Shown piece after piece: positions 3,988 to 41,706 of a stretch of DNA of 64,000 nt. The notes beneath the pieces were generated by a model, which was not told the origin of the DNA, searched no databases, and saw nothing but the letters and a program-made list of their open reading frames with translations. Position 1 is the first letter of the stretch; every line of letters begins with the position of its first letter. The position numbers and the translations under genes were made by a program. The stretch spans positions 124,001-188,000 of the forward strand of contig CAINNJ010000046.1 of assembly GCA_903851195.1 (NCBI GenBank). The letters run 5' to 3'. The stretch is from an uncultured Acidobacteriia bacterium (GTDB lineage Bacteria; Acidobacteriota; Terriglobia; Bryobacterales; Bryobacteraceae).

Positions 3988-4469
3988 ACCTCCTGTTTCT
4001 GCAGCTTGCCCCGCAGCAGCGTGAGCGAGCGATGCAGGTGACTCTTCACCGTGCTGACGGGCATGGCCAGCGTCTCCGCGATCTCCGACGGATCCAGATC
4101 TTCCTGATAGCGCAGCAACACCACCATGCGGGCCTTCTCCGGCAGCAGGCCCACCAGTTTGCGCAGGCGGTCCTGCAGCAGCAGGTCCGGCGTGGCTGTT
4201 TTGTCCGCCGGTTCCGGCGCGCTTTCAAGGCCCACGCGGGGCCGCAGCTTCCGCTTTCGAACTTCGTCGATGGAGCGGTGGCACACGGCGCGACGCAGCC
4301 ACCAGGTCGCGTGCGCCGGGCTCTCGATCCGGCTCAACTGCCGATAGAGCTGCAGGAAGACATCCTGCGCAAGTTCCTCCGCCCCGGCGCGGTCGCGGAC
4401 AAAGCGCAACGCCAGGCTGAAGACCATCGACTGGTTGTCCCGGACGATCTCCGGAAAATCAAGCCCCAC
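3978..4469 (-). CDS. RNA polymerase ECF sigma factor
   Basis: 163 residues from the preferred GTG start at 4469. Region 2 is seen in AEELAQDVFLQLYRQL and WWLRRAVCHRSIDEVRKR; region 4 in LPEKARMVVLLRYQEDLD, followed by a helix-turn-helix (SEIAETLAMPVSTVKSHLHR). Longer in-frame starts (up to 4604) would run into the kinase gene and add residues that do not look like sigma region 2, so the GTG is favoured, although its ribosome site is weak. It lies downstream of a Ser/Thr kinase and upstream of a membrane protein and DUF4252. It probably controls an envelope response. Confidence 0.85.
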   Translation of the reverse strand: MGLDFPEIVRDNQSMVFSLALRFVRDRAGAEELAQDVFLQLYRQLSRIESPAHATWWLRRAVCHRSIDEVRKRKLRPRVGLESAPEPADKTATPDLLLQDRLRKLVGLLPEKARMVVLLRYQEDLDPSEIAETLAMPVSTVKSHLHRSLTLLRGKLQKQEVCS

Positions 4470-4509
4470 ACTCGCTATTACGGACGAGCGGCCGGAGAGA
4501 ATGCAGGTT

Positions 4510-6273
4510 TTATCGGGAAAGCGGGATTCGCAGATAAAACGGGCTCTCGCGCAGCTGAATGCGCTCGGTGCGCGAAATACCGTCCTTCTCGACGGTGACG
4601 GCATAAGCGCCTGGCTTGAGGGGCAGTTCGGCGGGTGTGACTTTCGGAAGCAGTTCCCCGTTGATCCGGATGCTCGCGCCCGCCGGGCTGCTGGCCAGCA
4701 TCAGCGTGCCGACGGGCTGGCGAAGAGAGATCAGGCCCATGTCCAGAGCCGAATCGCCGAGGTGAATCTCGCGGGTTTCGTTGAGATAACCGGGCAGGGA
4801 GATCGCCAGCCGGTGCACTCCCGGCATCGCGTGGAACTGGCAGGGGGTAAGGCAGGAGAAGCCGTCGTTCTCGTCGAGCACGACGCGCGCGCCGGACGGA
4901 GTGGTGGCGATCCAGACGTCCTGGAGGCGGGAGGCCGGGTTCCGCCGCGTCACCGGTGGCGGTTCTTCGAATCGGGCGCGGACGGAATCGGGCGCGGACG
5001 GTTTTGCCGCGATCCCCCGTTCAGGAGCCGTGGTTTCCGGAGCGGTCGTTTCCGTCTTCGGGGTCTCCGGCCGCGGGGTCTCCGTCTTCGGTGCTTCCGG
5101 TTTCGGGGCTTCGGGTGTCGGCTGCTCCGGTTTCGAAAGAGGATCCGGCGCCGCCACGGCTCCCGGCGTTTGCTCGGGACGGTTTTGCACCGGCCGGTCC
5201 GGCGTGGCTTCCGTGCTGTTTCCGGTCAGACCGGATTCGTACACCAGAATTCCGCCGGCGCCACACACCACCAGCAAACTCAGCAGCACCGGAACCAGGC
5301 CCCCGCGCTTTTTGGCCACTGGAGCCCTCTCCGGCCGGGCGAGTGCCGCAGCCGGGGCGGCATGCAGCGGATGCTCCACGGCGATGGTCGGCTGTTCGGC
5401 TGCTGCGCCCGCGGCCAACGTCTGCCAACCACGCGATTCCGCGCACGCCAACTCCAGCGCGCCCACGAAATTCGAGCAGTTCGGAAACCGGTCCCCGGGA
5501 TTCTTCGACAGCGCCTTGCGCAATACTTCGTCAATACGCGGGGTCAGCGTGCCGTTGATCCGGTGCGCCGGCGGCGGTTCTTCCGCGACGATTTTGTAGA
5601 CCACCGTGCTCAGATGTTCGCCCGCGAACGGCCGCTCGCCCGTCAGGATCTCCCAGGCGATCACGGCCAGCGAGAACTGATCGGAACGCCCGTCCACGGC
5701 GAGACCCTGCACCTGCTCGGGCGACATGTAGTTCGGCGTGCCGGAGATCGTTTTCGTCTCGTTACCCGTCGACGCCGCAGTCGCGATACGGGCGATTCCG
5801 AAATCGGTGATCTTGACGGAACCGTCTTCGTCGGTCATCAGATTGCCGGGCTTGATGTCCCGGTGCACGATGCCCTTGCCGTGCGCGTAGTCGAGCGCGG
5901 AAGCGGCCTGGCGGAGAATTCGCAGCATCCGCGCCCCGGAAAGCGGCTCGTCGGACGCCAGAATCTTTTCGAGGGTGGGCCCGTTCACGTAGGCCATCGC
6001 GATATAGGCGAGGCCATCGTCCTCGTCCATGTCGTAGATCGTCACGATATTCGGGTGCGAGAGGACGCCCGCCGAACGCGCTTCCACGAACAGCCTTTCG
6101 CGCAGCTTTTCGCGGTGCCGTTCCTCGTGAATATCGCGGATGCGGATCGTTTTAATGGCAACGGTGCGGCCGATGACCGGGTCGGTAGCGCGATACACCA
6201 CGCCCATGGCGCCGCGGCCCAGTTCGCCCGCGATCCGGTAGCGCCCGATCCGTTCCCCGATTGCCTGTTCCAT
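4510..6273 (-). CDS. Membrane-anchored Ser/Thr protein kinase with C-terminal PEGA repeats
   Basis: 587 residues. A Hanks-type kinase domain fills about 10-275: Gly loop LGRGAMGVV (18-26), catalytic Lys in VAIK (K41), HRDIKPGN (137-144, Asp139), DFG (157-159) and GTPNYMSPEQ (178-187), so it should be active. A single membrane helix follows (about 325-345), then a Pro/Glu/Thr/Lys-rich spacer of degenerate pentapeptide repeats (about 360-425), and two PEGA-type beta modules (about 445-587, with TTPSGARVVLD and SSPAGASIRING). The kinase is cytoplasmic and the PEGA part probably periplasmic. The gene precedes the ECF sigma factor by 40 bases, so a kinase-to-sigma link is plausible but unproven. 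Confidence 0.92.
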   Translation of the reverse strand: MEQAIGERIGRYRIAGELGRGAMGVVYRATDPVIGRTVAIKTIRIRDIHEERHREKLRERLFVEARSAGVLSHPNIVTIYDMDEDDGLAYIAMAYVNGPTLEKILASDEPLSGARMLRILRQAASALDYAHGKGIVHRDIKPGNLMTDEDGSVKITDFGIARIATAASTGNETKTISGTPNYMSPEQVQGLAVDGRSDQFSLAVIAWEILTGERPFAGEHLSTVVYKIVAEEPPPAHRINGTLTPRIDEVLRKALSKNPGDRFPNCSNFVGALELACAESRGWQTLAAGAAAEQPTIAVEHPLHAAPAAALARPERAPVAKKRGGLVPVLLSLLVVCGAGGILVYESGLTGNSTEATPDRPVQNRPEQTPGAVAAPDPLSKPEQPTPEAPKPEAPKTETPRPETPKTETTAPETTAPERGIAAKPSAPDSVRARFEEPPPVTRRNPASRLQDVWIATTPSGARVVLDENDGFSCLTPCQFHAMPGVHRLAISLPGYLNETREIHLGDSALDMGLISLRQPVGTLMLASSPAGASIRINGELLPKVTPAELPLKPGAYAVTVEKDGISRTERIQLRESPFYLRIPLSR

Positions 6274-6302
6274 TGCCTCTGTCTGCTATTCTCGCCCGGC
6301 CG

Positions 6303-7289
6303 TCACCGGAAATAAACAGATGTTTCGCGGGCGGCGATTTCCGCCACGAACTGCAGCGCCACTTCATCCACCCAAAAACGCGGTCCGCGCCGCGACAGAA
6401 AGCCCACGTGGCCGCCGTGATCCGTGGCCAGCAGCGTCAGATGAGGATTTCCGGCGATGGAGGGATGGTGAAAGATATCGAACGGAATAAAGGTATCGTC
6501 TTTGGCCTGAATTAATAAACCTGGCACCCGGATTTTATCCAGAAAATTCATGGCCGATTGCGTGGCGTAATAATGATCGGCATCGCGAAAACCGAACGAC
6601 GGCGCGGTAATCCGGTTATCGATTTCGTAAACGGACCGAACGCCCGCGAAATCGCTTTCCCGGTATCTGCCGGTCCCGATCAGCCGGGCTTTCATGCGGG
6701 AGACGAAGCGCCGCTGATAAAAAACGTTGTCCCGCCGGGAGATGCGCCGGGCGCAGGCGGCGAGATCGATGGGAGTCGAAATCGCGCAGACGCCCTGGAT
6801 CAGTTCGGTCTCGCCCAGTTCTCCGGCCATCTTCAGGGACACGTTGCCGCCGAGGGAGAAGCCGATCAGGAACACCGGCAGGCGCCGGTCCCGCGCCTTC
6901 TGCAACTGGACCGTCTGTTCCAGGAAGGCCCGCAAATCCGAGGTCAATCCGGCGTGATAGAGAGTCTTGCAGAGCTTCTCCGTGCCGCCGCAGGTGCGCA
7001 TGTGAAAGCGATGGACGATGAAACCCGACTGCAGCGCGTGCCAGGCCATGCTGACGATATAACCGGAATCGCCGCCGCCTTCAAGACCATGCAGCAGCAC
7101 AACTTCGCCCACCGGCGTGCCGGAAGGCTGCTGGGTAAGGACCAGAACCTGGGTATCGGGATCCGTCCGGATGAGACGGCCTTCAGAGGGGTGAGCCGCG
7201 AAATCGAACTCGCGCGGCCAGAAGTTGCCTAAAACAGTAAGAACGTGCGGGTTGCGGGAAAGAGGCTCGAATGGCCGGAAGCGCTTCAA
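6303..7289 (-). CDS. YheT-family alpha/beta hydrolase
   Basis: 328 residues, the usual length for the YheT/ABHD1-3 family of alpha/beta hydrolases. Seen are the oxyanion-region HGLEGGGDSGYI, the nucleophile elbow GFSLGGN, the acid in AKDDTFIP and the catalytic His in DHGGHVGF, together with the family N-terminus NPHVLTVLGNFW. No signal peptide: cytoplasmic. Family members are esterases or lipases of poorly known substrate. The start is TTG at 7289. It sits between the GAF-ANTAR regulator and the kinase, 24-30 bases from each. Confidence 0.9.
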   Translation of the reverse strand: MKRFRPFEPLSRNPHVLTVLGNFWPREFDFAAHPSEGRLIRTDPDTQVLVLTQQPSGTPVGEVVLLHGLEGGGDSGYIVSMAWHALQSGFIVHRFHMRTCGGTEKLCKTLYHAGLTSDLRAFLEQTVQLQKARDRRLPVFLIGFSLGGNVSLKMAGELGETELIQGVCAISTPIDLAACARRISRRDNVFYQRRFVSRMKARLIGTGRYRESDFAGVRSVYEIDNRITAPSFGFRDADHYYATQSAMNFLDKIRVPGLLIQAKDDTFIPFDIFHHPSIAGNPHLTLLATDHGGHVGFLSRRGPRFWVDEVALQFVAEIAARETSVYFR

Positions 7290-26102: not shown

Positions 26103-29100
26103 ATGAATCGCTTCCTGGTCTTCGCCGGAGTGTGTCTGCTCTCCCTCTGCACTTCCCTGCCCGCCCAAACGGAGCGCGGCAATATCACGGGTCTCGTTAC
26201 CGACGGCAGCGGCGCGGGCGTTCCCAATCAGGAGGTGGTGATTGTGAACACGGCCACCAACACCGCCGAACGGGTCAGCACCACGGGCACGGGCGAATAC
26301 AACGCCGCGAACCTCGCGCCTGGCGCCTATCGCGTGGAAATCAGCGCGACGGGTTTTAAGCGCTTCGTCGAAAGCGGTATCGTACTGACAGCGGCGAAAA
26401 CCGTCCGCGTGGACGCAAAGCTCGAACTCGGACAGATCAGCGATTCCGTGCAGGTGACCGCGCAGGCGGCGCAGATGCAGACCGAGGACGCCAAGATTTC
26501 GACGGCGGTTGAGAACAAACTGGTGGATCAACTGCCGCTCGTGGTCGGCGGCGCGCTGCGAAGTCCGTTCGATCTGGTTTCCATTACGCCGGAAGCGAAG
26601 GGGACCGGTAACGCGGTCTCGCTCGGAGGCGGCCAGGCGGCTTCCTGGAGCGCCACGCTGGATGGTTTGCCGGTAAACACGAACCGCTCGGCGGACGCCG
26701 GCGAGACGGCTTACATGACGCCTTCGGTCGAATCCATCACGGAGTTCGCGGTGGATACCAACGGCTTCAAAGCGGAGTTCGGCCAGGCGGGCGGCGGCGT
26801 GATCACCTTCGTTTCGAAATCCGGCACCAACGATTATCACGGAACCGGCTACGATTTTCTGCGCAATCAGGATCTGGATGCGCGCAATTTCTTTGCTGCC
26901 ACGCGCTCCATCTATAAGCAAAACGATTTCGGCGCTTCCTTCGGCGGCCCGGTGCGGATCCCGAAACTCTATGACGGCAAAAACCGGACGTTCTTTTTCG
27001 TGAACTACGAAGGTTTCCGCAACCGCATCGGCGCGAACGGGGCTATCGCCAGCGTGCCCACGCCGGAGATGTACAAGGGCGATTTCTCCAACTGGGTGAA
27101 CTCCGGCAATAAACAGATTCCGATCTACGATCCCGACAGCACGGCCACGGTCAACGGATCGTTCGTGCGCAATGCCTTCCCGAATAACCAGATTCCGGCC
27201 TCGCGTTTCAGCCCCACCAGCGCTTCCATTATTCCGTTCGCGCAAAGTGTCATGCCGAACCGTGCGGGCCTGGTGGCGGGCACATCCGGATACGTACGAA
27301 ACAATTACGCCACGCAGAGCGGCGTGACCGTGACGCCCACGGACAAGGGCAGCGTGAAGGTGGATCAGAACTTCGGCAACAGTCACCACGTGGCCTTCTT
27401 TTATAACCGCACGGCCTACACGAGTGAGCCGGGCGCGAGCGGTCCGGCGGGCCTTCCCGAGCCGCTCTGGAACGGCCAGATCGTGACCTATGACTCATCG
27501 GCTTACCGAATGAGTTATGACTGGACCATCTCTCCCCGGCTGCTCAATCACCTCGCGGTGGGCGGGAATAAGTTCTTCAAAGACAGTTACTCGCCGAACG
27601 TGGGCGGACCCTGGAAGGGCAAGGTCTGTATTAAGAACGCGGTCGATTGCACCGTCAATTTCCCGAGTATTTCCTTCAGCGATTTCACAGGCTGGGGCGG
27701 CGCGGCGGATAACGGCACCGAACAGCCCATGTGGTCCATTAAAGACGATCTCAGTTATGTGCGCGGCGCGCATACGCTGAAATTCGGCTACGATTACCAG
27801 AGTCAGCGCGCGAACGGTTTCGGGGAACAGAATATTGCCGGACAGGCCACCTTCAGCTTCCTCGAAACCGCCGTCCCCGGAGTCACCAACGGCAGCAGCG
27901 GCAGTTCGTTCGCGTCCTTCCTTTTGGGGACCGCAGACAGCGGCGCGACCGAGACCATTCGATACCTGCCGCAGACTTATCGCTACACCGGCCTGTATGC
28001 GCAGGACGACTGGCGCGTGAACAAACGTCTGGTGCTGAATATCGGCCTGCGCTATGAATTCACCCGGCCGCCGGTCTCGATGGGCGATCAGTATTCGGAC
28101 TTCGCGCCGGACGTTCCGAATCCCGCGGTGAACAACTATCCCGGCGCCCTGCGCTTCGCGGGCAACGGCGCGGGACGCACGGGAACGCGGAGTCTGATTC
28201 CGTCCTGGTGGGGAGCGATCGGGCCGCGCCTGGGCGCCGCTTATTCGCTCGACAGTAAGACCACCATCCGCGCGGGCGCGGGACGCACTTTCAGCCGCGT
28301 CACGGTCGTCTCCGGCACCACGCACTACTCGGGTTTTATCGGCCAGTACAACTTCGCCTCCACCAACCAGGGCATCACGCCGGCATTCAACTGGGATCAG
28401 GGGCTGCCTTCTTATCCGCTTCCCCCGCAGATCAATCCCGCGTTTCAGAACAACCAGAACGTCGACTGGTGGCAGGGCCAGGAAGCTTCGCGCGCGCCGG
28501 AGATCGACTACTGGACGCTCTCCGTACAGCGCCAGCTTTCGGGCAAGATGATCCTCGAAGCGACCTATAACGGAACCTCGGGGAGTCATCTGCAGTCGGG
28601 CCTCGTGAACATCAACCAGACGCCCATGTCGGTGGTGAACGGGCTGATCGCGAAATACGGCGCGGCCCAGGCGATTACGCTGCTGAACTCGAACGTCACG
28701 TCACCGGCGGCCGTCGCGGCAGGCATTCCGATTCCCTACGCGAACTTCACCAACGCAAGTGTGCAACGGACCATGACCGTGGCCCAGGCGCTGCGGCCGT
28801 ATCCTCAATACCTCACCATCGACACCAGCCAGGGCGGCGGCGACAAGAGCGGCCATTCGATGTACAACGCGGCGATTCTCAAGCTTGAGCGCCGCTCCAC
28901 CGCGGGGCTGACCTTCCAGTGGAGTTATGTATTTTCGAAAATCCTGACGGATTCCGATACCTACTATGCCAACGGCGGCATGGCCGAGGATCAGGCGAAC
29001 CGGCGTCTGGAAAAATCGATCGGCGCCTACGACCAGACCCACGTGCTGAAGATGAACACGCTGTACGAACTGCCCTTCGGCCCGGGCAAGCGGTGGCTCT

Positions 29101-29591
29101 CCAGCGGGTTCGCCGGGCGGATGCTGGGCGGCTGGCGGCTGAGCGGGATTCAGGTGTATTCGAGCGGTTTCCCGCTGGGCGTTACCAGAAACGCGCCGCT
29201 GCCGATCTTCAATGGCCGTAACCCGGCGGTGATCACCACGTATGACGGCTGGCGCGCGACTACGGGGTCCGGCGGCTTTGACCCGAATGCCGGTCTTTTC
29301 TTTAATCCGGCGGTCTTTCCGGCCCAACCGGTGGGTGTTCTCGGGAATGCCACGCGCTTTAATCCGAAAGTGCGGGCATTTCCGAATCTGAACGAAAACG
29401 TAAGTCTGGGAAAGTCGTTCCGGCTGACGGAGCGGTTCCGGCTCGACTTCCGGGCGGAAGCCTTTAACATCCTGAACCGTGTCGTCTTCGGGTCGCCGAA
29501 CTCGAACCTGAACAGCAATTCCTTCGGGCTGGTAACGGGTCAATCGAACTCGGCGAGGCAGATGCAGGGAGCGCTGAAGCTCTACTGGTAG
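26103..29591 (+). CDS. Oar-like TonB-dependent receptor with carboxypeptidase-regulatory N-terminal domain
   Basis: 1162 residues. Signal peptide (1-21), a carboxypeptidase-regulatory-like beta domain (about 24-105; ERGNITGLVTDGSGAGVPNQ), a plug-like region (about 110-260) and a large outer-membrane beta-barrel ending in the typical aromatic C-terminus KLYW. The Oar/TonB receptor group is greatly expanded in Acidobacteria, where members import large or complex nutrients. Tyr, Asn and Gly are rich in the barrel as expected. No paired SusD gene is present. A -35-like TTGACG at 26063 and a weak CATCAT hexamer six bases before the ATG are the only promoter-like signals. Confidence 0.93.
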   Translation: MNRFLVFAGVCLLSLCTSLPAQTERGNITGLVTDGSGAGVPNQEVVIVNTATNTAERVSTTGTGEYNAANLAPGAYRVEISATGFKRFVESGIVLTAAKTVRVDAKLELGQISDSVQVTAQAAQMQTEDAKISTAVENKLVDQLPLVVGGALRSPFDLVSITPEAKGTGNAVSLGGGQAASWSATLDGLPVNTNRSADAGETAYMTPSVESITEFAVDTNGFKAEFGQAGGGVITFVSKSGTNDYHGTGYDFLRNQDLDARNFFAATRSIYKQNDFGASFGGPVRIPKLYDGKNRTFFFVNYEGFRNRIGANGAIASVPTPEMYKGDFSNWVNSGNKQIPIYDPDSTATVNGSFVRNAFPNNQIPASRFSPTSASIIPFAQSVMPNRAGLVAGTSGYVRNNYATQSGVTVTPTDKGSVKVDQNFGNSHHVAFFYNRTAYTSEPGASGPAGLPEPLWNGQIVTYDSSAYRMSYDWTISPRLLNHLAVGGNKFFKDSYSPNVGGPWKGKVCIKNAVDCTVNFPSISFSDFTGWGGAADNGTEQPMWSIKDDLSYVRGAHTLKFGYDYQSQRANGFGEQNIAGQATFSFLETAVPGVTNGSSGSSFASFLLGTADSGATETIRYLPQTYRYTGLYAQDDWRVNKRLVLNIGLRYEFTRPPVSMGDQYSDFAPDVPNPAVNNYPGALRFAGNGAGRTGTRSLIPSWWGAIGPRLGAAYSLDSKTTIRAGAGRTFSRVTVVSGTTHYSGFIGQYNFASTNQGITPAFNWDQGLPSYPLPPQINPAFQNNQNVDWWQGQEASRAPEIDYWTLSVQRQLSGKMILEATYNGTSGSHLQSGLVNINQTPMSVVNGLIAKYGAAQAITLLNSNVTSPAAVAAGIPIPYANFTNASVQRTMTVAQALRPYPQYLTIDTSQGGGDKSGHSMYNAAILKLERRSTAGLTFQWSYVFSKILTDSDTYYANGGMAEDQANRRLEKSIGAYDQTHVLKMNTLYELPFGPGKRWLSSGFAGRMLGGWRLSGIQVYSSGFPLGVTRNAPLPIFNGRNPAVITTYDGWRATTGSGGFDPNAGLFFNPAVFPAQPVGVLGNATRFNPKVRAFPNLNENVSLGKSFRLTERFRLDFRAEAFNILNRVVFGSPNSNLNSNSFGLVTGQSNSARQMQGALKLYW

Positions 29592-29602
29592 GCTGTTCGC
29601 TT

Positions 29603-30088
29603 ATGGTCAATCTGCACGCGGTGCCGCTCACGATTCCGGAAAACACGAACATCGTGCTCGGCCAGAGCCACTTCATTAAAACCGTGGAAGACGTCTACGA
29701 AGCGATGGTGAACACGGTGCCGGGCGCGAAGTTCGGCGTCGCCTTTAACGAAGCTTCCGGGCCGTGTCTGACGCGCAGCGGCGGCACGGATCCGGAACTG
29801 CAAAAGGCGGCTGTGGATATTGCCGGGGCCGTGGGCGCCGGGCACTTCTTCGCGCTGGTGATGCGCGGCGTGTTTCCGATCAATATACTGGGCCGGATCA
29901 AAGACGTGCCGGAAGTCTGCAATATTTTCTGCGCCACGGCGAATCCGGTCGAAGTCATCGTCGCGCAGACAGCGCAGGGCCGGGGCGTGCTCGGAGTCAT
30001 CGACGGGTCCTCACCGAAGGGTCTGGAGACGGAAGCGGACGGCGTGCACCGGCACGAGTTTTTGAGGAAAATCGGCTATAAACGGTAA
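29603..30088 (+). CDS. Adenosine-specific kinase family protein (PF04008)
   Basis: 161 residues, full length for the family. Conserved features seen are NIVLGQSHFIKTVEDVYEAM, KFGVAFNEASG, and the long C-terminal IFCATANPVEVIVAQT...GVIDG block. Archaeal members bind AMP/adenosine and have been described as adenosine-specific kinases, although the activity is weakly documented. Cytoplasmic. It is alone between the receptor and a terminator; it may be co-transcribed with the receptor, whose stop is 11 bases upstream. Confidence 0.9.
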   Translation: MVNLHAVPLTIPENTNIVLGQSHFIKTVEDVYEAMVNTVPGAKFGVAFNEASGPCLTRSGGTDPELQKAAVDIAGAVGAGHFFALVMRGVFPINILGRIKDVPEVCNIFCATANPVEVIVAQTAQGRGVLGVIDGSSPKGLETEADGVHRHEFLRKIGYKR

Positions 30089-30116
30089 AAGGCCGGGGAG
30101 GAAATCCCCGGCCTTT
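30088..30116. terminator. Bidirectional intrinsic terminator between the adenosine-kinase-like gene and rho
   Basis: Perfect 12-bp stem: AAAGGCCGGGGA (30088-30099) with TCCCCGGCCTTT (30105-30116), 5-base loop GGAAA. T-runs flank both arms. It starts at the last base of the plus-strand stop and lies 24 bases beyond the end of rho on the other strand. Confidence 0.9.
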
Positions 30117-30140
30117 CGTTAACGGACTGAGAGCGGCTGT

Positions 30141-32204
30141 TTACCGGCTCATGGAAGCCAGGAATTCCCCGTTGGTGCGGGTCTTGGCCAGCTTGTCGAG
30201 CAGCAGTTCCATCGTTTCCACGGGCGACAACGGACTCAGCACGCGGCGCAGAATATAGACGCGGTTGAGTTCGTCCGGCGGCATCAGCAGTTCTTCCTTG
30301 CGGGTGCCGCTCTTGTTGATATCGATGGCAGGGAACACGCGCTTCTCGATCAGCTTGCGGTCGAGATGAATTTCCATGTTGCCCGTGCCCTTGAACTCTT
30401 CGAAGATCACGTCGTCCATACGGCTGCCCGTATCCACCAGCGCGGTGGCGATGATGGTGAGCGAGCCGCCTTCTTCGATATTGCGCGCCGCGCCGAAGAA
30501 CCGCTTCGGACGCTGCAGAGCGTTGGAATCGACGCCGCCCGAGAGCACCTTGCCGGAGGGCGGCACGATGGTGTTGTAAGCGCGCGCCAGACGGGTGATG
30601 GAGTCGAGCAGGATGACGACATCCTTCTTGTGCTCCACCAGACGCTTGGCCTTTTCGATCACCATTTCGGCCACCTGCACGTGGCGGGTAGCGGGTTCGT
30701 CGAACGTGGAACTGATGACTTCGCCGCGCACCGAACGCTGCATATCGGTGACTTCTTCCGGGCGTTCGTCGATCAGCAGCACGATCAGCGTGACTTCCGG
30801 ATGGTTGGTCGTCACGGAGTTCGCGATGTTCTGCAGCAGCATCGTCTTGCCGGTGCGCGGCGGCGCCACGATCAGGCCACGCTGGCCCTTGCCGATAGGC
30901 GTAACCAGATCCATCACGCGGCCCGAGAAGTTCTCTTTGACCGTTTCGAGTTTCAGACGGCCGTTCGGATAAAGCGGCGTCAGATTGTCGAAGAAGATCT
31001 TATTGCGCGCTTCCTCCGGCGGTTCGAAGTTGATGGCGTCGACTTTGATCAGCGCGAAGTAACGTTCGCCTTCCTTGGGGGGGCGAATCTGACCGGAGAC
31101 CGTGTCGCCGGTGCGCAGGTCGAAGCGGCGGATCTGCGAGGGCGAGACGTACACGTCGTCAGGACCCGGCAGGTAGTTGTATTCGGGAGCGCGCAGGAAG
31201 CCGAACCCGTCCGGCAGGCATTCGAGCACGCCTTCCGAGAAAATAAGCCCGCTTTTTTCGGCCTGCGTCTGCAGGATCTTGAAAATCAGTTCCTGTTTGC
31301 GGAAACCGGCCGCGTTCTGAACGCCCATCTCTTTGGCGATGTTGTTCAGATCGACGATGCTCTTGTCTTTGAGTTCCACCAGATCGAGCCGTTCGCCCGT
31401 TCTGCCCTGCTGCTGGGGTTTATTGCGGCGCTGCTGATTGTTCTGATGGCCACCACCGGCCTGATTGCCCGGATTCCCCTGATTGCCGCCGCCCTGATTG
31501 CCCGGATTTCCACCACCCTGATTCTGCTGGTGGTGTTGCGGAGCCTGCTGCTGTCCGCCGCCGCCCTGCTGGGACGGCTGTTGCTGCTGCGGTCTCGGCT
31601 GTTGCTGTCCGCCATGCTGCGGATTGCCGGTCGCCTGATTGCCCGGATTGGCCGACGCGGAAGTATTCGCGGGCGCCGAAGTACCTGCCGCCGGAGGCGC
31701 TTCATTCACCGGCGCCGAGTTCCCGTCGGCCTGCGCGACCGGAGCGGGTGAAGCGGCCGGGGCTGCGACGGGTGGCGCTGAAGCGGGAGGCGCTGAATTG
31801 GAAGGTGTTGGAGCAGGAGGTGTTGAAGCGGGAGGTGTTGACGCGGGAGCCTGCGCGCTCACGCCCGGCAGTTCCGCCTGAACGGGCGCAACTTCCGCTT
31901 TTGGGGCTTCCGCTTTCGGGGCTTCGGCCCTGGGCGCTTCAGACCCTCTGGAGGCTTCCGCCTGCCGTGCCGCCTCGGCGGCCTTGGCGGCGTCCTGCTG
32001 CCGGGTGGCGCGAGGCGCGCGGGGCGGCCTTTCATGATGCGCGGGCCGGGCTTCCGAAGCCGGTTTCTGCGCTCCGTCTTCGCCCTTATCGGGTGTCTTC
32101 TCGGACTGCGCTTCCCGGGCGGGCTGCTCAGCCGTCTTCTCCGGAGCCGATTGCTCCTGAGGCGGTGTGTCTATGATTGGTGTGTTTTCGTTATCGCTTG
32201 CCAA
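30141..32204 (-). CDS. rho: Transcription termination factor Rho with long disordered, prion-like N-terminal extension
   Basis: 687 residues against about 420 in E. coli. From about 271 the standard Rho begins: Rho-N helices ([22 protein letters not shown]), the RNA-binding OSB domain ([22 protein letters not shown]), Walker A APPRTGKT (447-454), Walker B VVILLDS (529-535) and the R-loop/Q-loop region [10 protein letters not shown] (554-563). It is an RNA-dependent hexameric ATPase that ends transcription. The first 270 residues are disordered: charged (1-90), Pro/Ala repeats (90-180), then a Gln/Asn/Gly-rich stretch (about 186-267). Start is TTG at 32204 with GAGGG five bases upstream, inside the end of engB (34-base overlap). 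Confidence 0.95.
31780..31854. repeat. 15-bp repeats encoding the Pro/Ala segment of Rho
   Basis: Five 15-bp units beginning at 31780, 31795, 31810, 31825 and 31840, related to GAAGCGGGAGGTGTT, encode pentapeptides of the type (S/T)PPA(S/P) on the minus strand. Confidence 0.8.
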
Positions 32205-32731
32205 ATTTCCCTCACTCCCCGGCCGGTAACGGCCGAGAACGGCAGCGGCTCGGCATGTTGCCGGATGGCCTTCAAACCGCGCTGCTGCTCTGCCTGGTTC
32301 AGTTTGTCTATCTTGGACGCCACGACAAGGTACGGATGGTTATTCACTTCGAGCCAGTTCTTCAGGTCGAGGTCTTTATCCATCCAGCCGCGCCGCGCGT
32401 CCAGGATCAGAAATGATAATTGCAGAGTCTTTCGCTCCCGCAAGTAATGTTCAATGAGTACGGCCCATTCGCCTTTGGCCGCGACCGGCACACGCGCATA
32501 CCCGTAACCAGGTAAGTCAACGAAGTAGAGTTTGCCGTCCAGCCGGTAAAAGTTAATCGACTGTGTACGACCGGGCGTGTTACTGGTGAACGCCAGCCCT
32601 TTATGCCCTGTGATTGCATTAATCAGGCTGGATTTGCCGACGTTGCTTCTCCCCAGAAAAGCGATCTCGGGCATTCCATCGGCGGGGAACTGCTCCGGAC
32701 TGTTGGCGCTTAAGATGAATTCTGATTTCAA
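32171..32731 (-). CDS. engB: Ribosome biogenesis GTPase EngB (YihA/YsxC)
   Basis: 186 residues. The small TRAFAC GTPase shows G1 [13 protein letters not shown]2/G3 with [11 protein letters not shown] and [10 protein letters not shown]4 SKIDK and G5-like PFSAVTGRG. It assists 50S subunit assembly. Start is TTG at 32731. Its 3' end overlaps the start of rho by 34 bases, so the two genes are probably one transcript. Confidence 0.95.
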
Positions 32732-32900
32732 TTTTACTACACCGGAAGAAGGGAGGGAAGCAAGCGGGTGAAACCATAGTGTACCCTGGTTTCGCTACAC
32801 GATGTGCGCGCCGCGTTTTGATCCCTCTTCATGGTGCCCGAGGAACGCCTTCCCGTGCGTCGCCGGACACTTCGCATTCCTTAACTCCACTTCTGGCGTG

Positions 32901-32920
32901 TATACTCCAGATATGGAGTC
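32901..32920 (+). promoter_or_regulatory. Promoter -10 and inverted repeat over the antitoxin start
   Basis: TATACT (32901-32906) ends 6 bases before ATG 32913. CTCCA-GATA-TGGAG (32905-32918) is an inverted repeat that covers the start codon, a natural place for autorepression by the antitoxin. A convincing -35 is not seen. The preceding 170 bases, back to engB, hold no gene. Confidence 0.5.
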
Positions 32921-33353
32921 AGTCCCCGTATCCCCCGTCTATCTGGAACCCGTGCCGCCCGATCGCCGCAGCGATCCGAAGGTGCGCCGTCAGATGTCCG
33001 GCCCGGCCATCCGCGCGTTTCTGAATGTGGCCAAAGCCTGGGAACTCGACAGCGAGGAACGCCGCTGTCTGCTTGGCTGGCCCGCTCCTTCCACGTTCTT
33101 TAAATACCAGGCCGGCGATCACGGTACCCTCTCGTACGACATGCTGATGCGCATCTCCCTCGTGCTCGGCATCTACAAAGACCTCCACATTCTTTATCCC
33201 GAACCCGACCTCGCCGATCGCTGGGTCAAACTCCCCAACAGCAACCCGTTATTCGGTGGCCGGCCGGCCCTGGCTCTGATGTCGGAGAGCGGCATGGACG
33301 GCCTTTACCAGGTGCGGCGTCTGCTCGACGCCAGGCGGGGGGCATGGAGCTGA
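32913..33353 (+). CDS. Xre/MbcA/ParS-type antitoxin of a RES toxin-antitoxin pair
   Basis: 146 residues. An N-terminal all-helical domain (about 25-75; GPAIRAFLNVAKAWELDSEERRCLLGW) looks like the Xre-like helix-turn-helix of MbcA/ParS antitoxins, and the C-terminal part (WVKLPNSNPLFGGRPALALM) is the toxin-binding domain of that family (the NPLF.G..PL.LM motif). It should neutralise the RES protein encoded next, which it overlaps by 10 bases, and repress the operon. The ATG is preferred over an upstream in-frame ATG (32802) because of the promoter position and the family's usual length. Confidence 0.88.
   Translation: MESVPVSPVYLEPVPPDRRSDPKVRRQMSGPAIRAFLNVAKAWELDSEERRCLLGWPAPSTFFKYQAGDHGTLSYDMLMRISLVLGIYKDLHILYPEPDLADRWVKLPNSNPLFGGRPALALMSESGMDGLYQVRRLLDARRGAWS
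33344..33353 (+). other. 10-base overlap of antitoxin and toxin genes
   Basis: The toxin ATG (33344) lies inside the antitoxin end, which supports translational coupling and the correct pairing of the two genes. Confidence 0.8.
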
Positions 33354-34012
33354 CATCCCCGATACCGCTGGTCCGGCTCCGCTGGAAGAACACCTGCCGC
33401 CTGATTCCGAGCCGCTTTCCTTCCACCGGCATTCTGGACCGCGTGGCGCGCCCCGAAGACCTCCCGCACATCTTCGAACTGGAATCCTGGACCAACGACC
33501 GTATTTCGAGCGAACTTGGTGTACTCCACCGCGTGCCGCCCGAAGAGTGGGTCACCGGTCCGCAGGCCACCGTGATCATGGCCGCCTTCTGTCATCCCCG
33601 GCCCGATGGCGGCCGCTTCAACGGGGCGGATCGCGGCGCCTGGTACACCGCGCGCCGGCTCGACACCGCGCATGCCGAGATCATCTACCACCGTACGCGG
33701 GAACTGGCCGAAGTCGGCGTTTTCGAAACGCGCGTGCAGATGCGGCTGTATCTTTCCGACCTGAGCGCATCTTTCCATGACATGCGGCCCGATCCGCGCG
33801 TGCGCGATCCCGACAGTTATACCGAATCGCAGAAGCTGGCGCGTGGACTCTTCGATTCCGGCTCCAACGGCATCGTCTACCGGAGTGTGCGGGATGCCGG
33901 CGGCGAGTGTGTCGCCTGCTTCCGCCCCCGGCTCGTCGGCAACGTCCGGCCGGACGCGCACTTCGAATACAGATGGTCCGGCACGTCCACGCCGTCCGTT
34001 CGGCAGTTGTAG
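33344..34012 (+). CDS. RES-domain toxin (NAD+ phosphorylase family)
   Basis: 222 residues with the RES fold: the N-terminal Arg region (RLIPSRFPSTGILDRVA), GAWYTARRLDTAHAE in the middle and a conserved Ser/Asn near ARGLFDSGSNGIVYRS. RES toxins of type II systems degrade NAD+ (phosphorolysis or glycohydrolysis), halting growth. The protein is longer than the smallest RES toxins (about 150 aa), with an insert at about 50-85. Base composition is like its neighbours, so no sign of recent transfer is evident. Confidence 0.87.
   Translation: MELTSPIPLVRLRWKNTCRLIPSRFPSTGILDRVARPEDLPHIFELESWTNDRISSELGVLHRVPPEEWVTGPQATVIMAAFCHPRPDGGRFNGADRGAWYTARRLDTAHAEIIYHRTRELAEVGVFETRVQMRLYLSDLSASFHDMRPDPRVRDPDSYTESQKLARGLFDSGSNGIVYRSVRDAGGECVACFRPRLVGNVRPDAHFEYRWSGTSTPSVRQL

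Positions 34013-38244: not shown

Positions 38245-41706
<3,462 letters not shown>

Follow-up and report, generated by a model that had tools for sequence, protein, structure and literature searches.

The termination factor Rho encoded in a 64,000-nucleotide stretch of DNA from an uncultured Acidobacteriia bacterium of the family Bryobacteraceae (contig CAINNJ010000046.1, positions 124,001 to 188,000; referred to as the window) carries a 272-residue low-complexity tail in front of its helix bundle. The feature shared by the Rho proteins of this family is the tail itself together with its charge layout (near-neutral, with an acidic tip and an Arg collar), and not its Gln/Asn (Q/N) content. Rho is in use as a model for the control of an essential machine by a disordered region, and Q/N content has drawn attention so far; this family separates the variables, since the tail and charge layout persist throughout, with the Q/N block present in some Rhos of a single genus and absent from others. 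We tentatively propose that the tail is an electrostatic, RNA-facing element with a possible role in tuning the capture of RNA or condensation driven by RNA; judged from sequence, this reading falls just short of an even chance. The gene and its parts were as follows (residue numbers are those of the protein):

30141..32204, minus strand: rho, 687 residues, TTG start at 32204 (TIGR00767, 726 bits).
31389..32204, minus strand: N-terminal low-complexity tail, residues 1-272 (E. coli chains align only from approximately residue 273; composition).
31935..32204, minus strand: charged, net acidic first part of the tail, residues 1-90, with 13 K/R and 17 D/E (composition).
31650..31934, minus strand: Pro/Ala-rich spacer, residues 91-185 (composition).
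31407..31649, minus strand: Gln/Asn/Gly-rich block, residues 186-266, with 39 Q+N (log10 P of -17.6).
31389..31430, minus strand: basic collar, residues 259-272 (charge counts and conservation of R259).
31892..31925, no strand assigned: 15-bp tandem array of the KAEAP type (TRF).
31769..31849, no strand assigned: 15-bp tandem array encoding Pro/Ala pentapeptides, 5.4 copies, 78% match (TRF).
31467..31524, no strand assigned: 24-bp tandem array within the Q/N block (TRF).
31248..31376, minus strand: Rho_N helix bundle, residues 277-319 (PF07498, 62 bits).
31014..31235, minus strand: Rho_RNA_bind (cold-shock-like) domain, residues 324-397, without an insertion before it (PF07497, 116 bits).
30309..30920, minus strand: ATPase domain, residues 429-632 (PF00006, 97 bits).

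A PF07497 match was obtained for 17 of 19 genomes of the window's genus and for 86 of 101 Bryobacteraceae genomes. Among 97 family loci, 95 had a start candidate (85 clear, 10 unclear and set aside) and 2 had none. Each of the 85 Rhos with a clear start had a tail, with a length of 42-272 residues (median, 115), that of the window being the longest. Charges were counted in 90 tails (L010, L031, L016, L027, L036, L102, and L121 were left out). The net charge was -0.76 on average (standard deviation, 2.18), with a correlation between K/R and D/E of r = 0.93; the window tail contained 22 K/R and 24 D/E (net, -2). The first 20 residues were negative in 90/90 tails, and the last 28 were positive in 79 (mean, +2.72), whereas shuffled tails gave a mean of -0.30, and one of 0.40 at most. 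The basic peak, carried by Arg, was located 9-16 residues ahead of the core. At a distance of 5-30 residues from the core, a basic pair was detected in 77 tails (shuffle maximum, 39), including 62 of the 75 outside the genus, and R259 was conserved in at least 90% of 31 aligned Rhos. The tails were also sticker-poor: F, W, Y, and C together accounted for 25 of 11055 residues in the 90 tails (14 of the 25 within the first 10 positions), and were completely absent from residues 1-272 of the window Rho.

The remainder of this 687-residue protein was a standard Rho. The Rho_N, Rho_RNA_bind, and ATPase domains were present at full length, the TIGR00767 profile covered residues 276-686, and the solved E. 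coli Rho chains were alignable from residue 272-274 (approximately 273) onward with one 3-residue gap; no other PF07497 match was found in the source genome. The anchor spacing between the helix bundle and cold-shock domain was measured in 92 family Rhos, being 52 residues in 91 and 53 in one (5 of the 97 had no match to the search pattern) and, therefore, family Rhos have no insertion between these domains. Since a published comment on Rho disorder describes the variable region as an insertion separating these two domains (PMC10284900), the tail before the bundle is, at the level of domain order, an architecture different from the published insertions.

The start of the tail lies within the preceding gene:

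32171..32731, minus strand: GTPase gene of the engB/ysxC type (MMR_HSR1 match), which we take to be engB; its last 34 bases overlap the rho start.
32209..32220, minus strand: GGGGAGTGAGGG, a site of the Shine-Dalgarno type that lies within engB, ahead of the TTG (33 of 90 members share an identical 16-mer).

The TTG and the Shine-Dalgarno-like site of rho are both out of frame within the end of engB. In 92 of 95 family loci, a Shine-Dalgarno-like 4-mer (by a lax test) preceded the start that was chosen, and the frame was open from the engB-embedded start to the Rho core in 87 of 90. The engB codon before a conserved Trp was then read on the EngB motif alone; among the 97 loci, 85 had an engB match (12 had none in the locus), and 76 were read, the other 9 having no motif match. 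This codon was ATT in 61 of 61 cases of Ile, in contrast to 23.6% ATT among other engB Ile codons (p = 5e-39, a nominal value because the loci are related). The rho start was TTG in 74 of the 76 read loci (third base of the engB codon, T) and GTG in 2 (third base, G). The engB codon choice seems to be held by selection to keep the rho start, which makes translation of the tail very probable. The opposite case, in which the tail is untranslated and Rho begins at a codon near residue 273, would accommodate a weak TTG start and the presence of later in-frame start codons; however, it was scarcely credible in view of the upstream 4-mers, the open frames, and the ATT bias, which yields TTG or GTG in 76/76 loci. 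The weak rho start is possibly coupled to the translation of engB. A conserved LASD motif at the start was rejected as a protein motif, being largely an out-of-frame reading of EngB ...REIWQAI. The distance between the end of engB and the Rho core was 68-761 nt (median, 299) in 82 family loci. Outside the family, 23 of the 114 loci scanned had an engB match, and in 16 of these, engB ended at most 142 nt from the core. The tail appears to have expanded in situ, bounded by a fixed start on one side and the Rho core on the other.

The first-pass annotation had described a disordered N-terminus of 270 residues, made of a charged block (1-90), Pro/Ala repeats from 15-bp units (90-180), and a Gln/Asn/Gly-rich stretch (186-267). 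A long tail of the disordered type was indeed present, its length being corrected to 272 residues, and the charged block was confirmed by its 13 K/R and 17 D/E. The 15-bp units were real by TRF, but the arrays covered only residues ~94-104 and 119-146; Ala and Pro accounted for 57% of residues 90-180. Residues 186-267 agreed with the description, consisting of 33% Q, 15% N, and 26% G, with 4 K/R and no aromatic, I/L/M/V, or acidic residues. The 39 Q+N of residues 186-266 were more than expected by chance (log10 P, -17.6), as estimated by an equal-background binomial in our own implementation modelled on that of Harrison 2019, and not by fLPS; the best 80-residue stretch of the tail contained 38 Q/N. 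Among 332 open reading frames (ORFs) of at least 120 residues in the window and a further 20 stretches of this genome (418 kb of 7.7 Mb), only this Rho and a Q-rich DUF3300 protein reached a log10 P of -10 or lower; the latter, encoded at L227:14907-16868, contains QQQQYP-type repeats. A FoldIndex-type score was unfolded for residues 1-90 and ~180-270, and near zero to positive over ~91-180. In an AlphaFold model (31 sequences), the mean pLDDT was 52 and no helix or strand was predicted for residues 1-274. The low-complexity tail is very probably disordered.

The Q/N block was far less widespread than the tail. With a threshold of 1e-10, only 5 of the 85 family tails were Q/N-rich (L001, L005, L009, L008, and L013), all from the window's genus; L011 of this genus (log10 P, -9.0) and L120 of another (-8.6) were near the threshold. 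The stretch was therefore largely absent from the close relatives' Rhos, an outcome that the first-pass annotation had named as counting against its reading. In a Rho-core tree (19 rows; L003 was omitted as too short), the genus members split into two subclades, some deeper forks not being firm, and, therefore, either two Q/N gains or one gain with losses occurred. The tail DNA of the three closest relatives aligned best at both ends, with large indels between. Outside the family, at least 60 open residues preceded the Rho core in 28 of the 114 loci; the lowest Q/N log10 P was -3.0 among these long Rhos and -1.9 among 20 further loci (11 from a sister family and 9 other long acidobacterial Rhos). 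A tail before the core was not unique to the family, since ATG-started tails of roughly 90-115 residues were found in some other acidobacteria (for example, L135, L278, and L284). One family genome (G093) contained two rho-type matches (L102 and L117); L102 was divergent, its tail being short and Pro-rich, and its locus had no engB match.

We envisage the electrostatic, RNA-facing function as follows. Six tails per hexamer would adjoin the helix bundle, which belongs to the primary RNA-binding part, and there the Arg collar may add RNA affinity or steer RNA to the primary site, and the acidic part may be able to compete with RNA for the collar. The P/A/G/Q/N middle would serve as a soluble spacer, the length and letters of which drift through repeat slippage, and the Q/N/G block would be one recent filling of this spacer. 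RNA-driven condensation is a possible outcome, while amyloid inheritance would not be expected. Precedents in favour of this reading are the disordered inserts of Micrococcus and Mycobacterium Rho, which raise RNA affinity, and the short charged motifs that control Bacteroides thetaiotaomicron Rho. A more elaborate version is a lineage-specific gate, in which the acidic tip folds onto the Arg collar next to the primary site for RNA until RNA or ppGpp displaces it, the six tails set the engagement of Rho with nascent RNA or condensation, and the dose is tied to ribosome assembly via the TTG in engB; we regard this version in full as improbable.

Several observations weigh against the electrostatic reading. 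The basic pair was missing in 13 of the 90 tails. The first 11-13 tail residues are constrained by the engB overlap, and part of the acidic tip (D4 and E6) may be its by-product; the mean net charge without the first 13 residues was +1.4, and bins 9-24 of the tail were still acidic. The charge statistics were obtained over related genomes and are not independent. The inter-domain linkers of initiation factor IF-2 from the same family (22 used of 24 tabulated, from 30 loci) were similarly tight in charge dispersion (standard deviation of z, 0.45, n = 22, vs 0.41 for the Rho tail), but strongly basic (mean, +18); tightness is therefore general and neutrality is the property of Rho, and net-charge under-dispersion was rejected as a Rho-specific signal. 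The AlphaFold model was also of low confidence on the folded cold-shock domain and, hence, is weak evidence for disorder. In a sister family of the same class (f2), ATG occupied the place of residue 273 in 30/30 loci, namely, these Rhos have no tail; 3 of the 30 (L270, L272, and L273) additionally had upstream in-frame candidate starts. The window also contains an infB gene (39829-41706, minus strand) with a linker of ~524 residues between two IF2_N domains; in contrast to the near-neutral Rho tail, this linker is basic (54 K/R and 32 D/E over 500 counted residues).

The main rival is a role of the tail in stress-induced condensation of Rho with RNA, like that of the disordered region of Bacteroides thetaiotaomicron Rho (BtRho), the Q/N block tuning condensation. 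The order of parts resembles BtRho (first a charged block and then a Q/N-rich one containing a basic motif), and disordered Rho regions are common in several phyla (PMC10284900). On the other hand, the tail is located before the helix bundle, residues 186-267 are poor in stickers (they include 4 K/R, but neither aromatic nor acidic residues), and family members without Q/N retain the tail. Furthermore, in BtRho (PMC13269538), the Lys/Glu (KE)-rich part was required for RNA-dependent condensation, whereas the prion-like subdomain alone formed droplets only with a crowder and was insufficient with RNA, its motif acting as a negative regulator. We consider this explanation rather unlikely, but ahead of the third-ranked one, in which the tail is mostly tolerated filler produced by repeat slippage between the engB-fixed start and the core, with selection only for solubility and frame. 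The tandem arrays, the large indels by which the three closest tails differ, freely varying composition, and short engB-core gap outside the family (at most 142 nt in 16/23, against a family median of 299 nt) are as filler would predict; however, a tail in every family member with a clear start, and the preservation of the basic collar and charge layout to a degree not seen in shuffled tails, are not, and we judge it clearly unlikely.

Ranked last was the proposal, prompted by the first-pass annotation, that residues 180-270 are a prion domain switching Rho between soluble and amyloid states. Besides the Q/N enrichment given above (38 in 80 residues), a PLAAC-like log-odds of 50 over 60 residues was obtained, with approximate parameters and not with PLAAC itself; a score above 20 on these parameters was found in 8 of 90 tails. 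However, the PAPA score (in our own coding of its scale) was -0.13, below the cut-off of 0.05, a value also named in the literature; none of the 90 family tails reached 0.05. The Q/N-rich low-complexity stretch of the prion Rho of Clostridium botulinum had a counterpart here, whereas an aromatic/hydrophobic amyloid core did not, since residues 186-267 lack F/W/Y and I/L/M/V, and are rich in Gly and Pro without Cys. Together with the restriction of the block to one genus among the genomes examined, the PAPA score and aromatic content led us to reject a prion domain proper as unlikely, and an amyloid switch appeared very improbable.

Regarding the surroundings of rho, an adenosine-specific kinase family gene (29603-30088, plus strand; PF04008) is convergent with it, and an antisense ORF (30366-31751, plus strand) lies opposite, which nothing in the analysis backs. 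An Rfam scan of 29000-33500 at the gathering score gave no matches. Elsewhere in the window, a 626-residue ORF without a Pfam match (4435-6315, plus strand) contains 15/16/30-bp tandem arrays at 4969-5135.

The first-pass annotation had likened this Rho to those of C. botulinum and Bacteroides; a condensation link was plausible, while the position differed, the published regions being described as following the bundle and the window tail preceding it. The disordered region of BtRho (PMC13269538) consists of KE-rich, conserved, and prion-like subdomains under the control of short charged motifs. Both proteins have a long disordered region in the N-terminal part with a charged block and then a Q/N-rich block, and short conserved charged motifs in otherwise unconserved length and sequence; in the window Rho, these motifs are the collar and the tip (the latter partly due to the engB overlap). 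The BtRho insertion follows the helix bundle (PMC10284900; position taken from its description), no counterpart of its conserved 30-residue domain was found in the window Rho, and condensation, which was shown for BtRho, is a possible outcome for the present protein. Prion-like Rho of C. botulinum is likewise sporadic among relatives, but its amyloid-forming core (PMC4703818 and PMC6400439) is N/S-rich with Phe and passes PAPA, in contrast to the Q/G/N/P-rich block without aromatics that fails it here. The actinobacterial insertion domains (PMC8828861 and PMC10284900) are also disordered with basic residues in the RNA-binding N-terminal part, and those of Micrococcus and Mycobacterium raise RNA affinity; however, they are described as R/K-rich inserts within the RNA-binding domain, whereas the window tail is outside this domain and near-neutral (net, -2) with a local collar. 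E. coli Rho is alignable over the core, but has no tail. The shorter acidobacterial tails, such as those of L135, L278, and L284, are a formal parallel, being ATG-started K/E/P/A-rich stretches before the core, but not Q/N-rich. With a tail position unlike that of the studied insertions, the Bryobacteraceae Rhos provide natural matched pairs for composition versus charge pattern.
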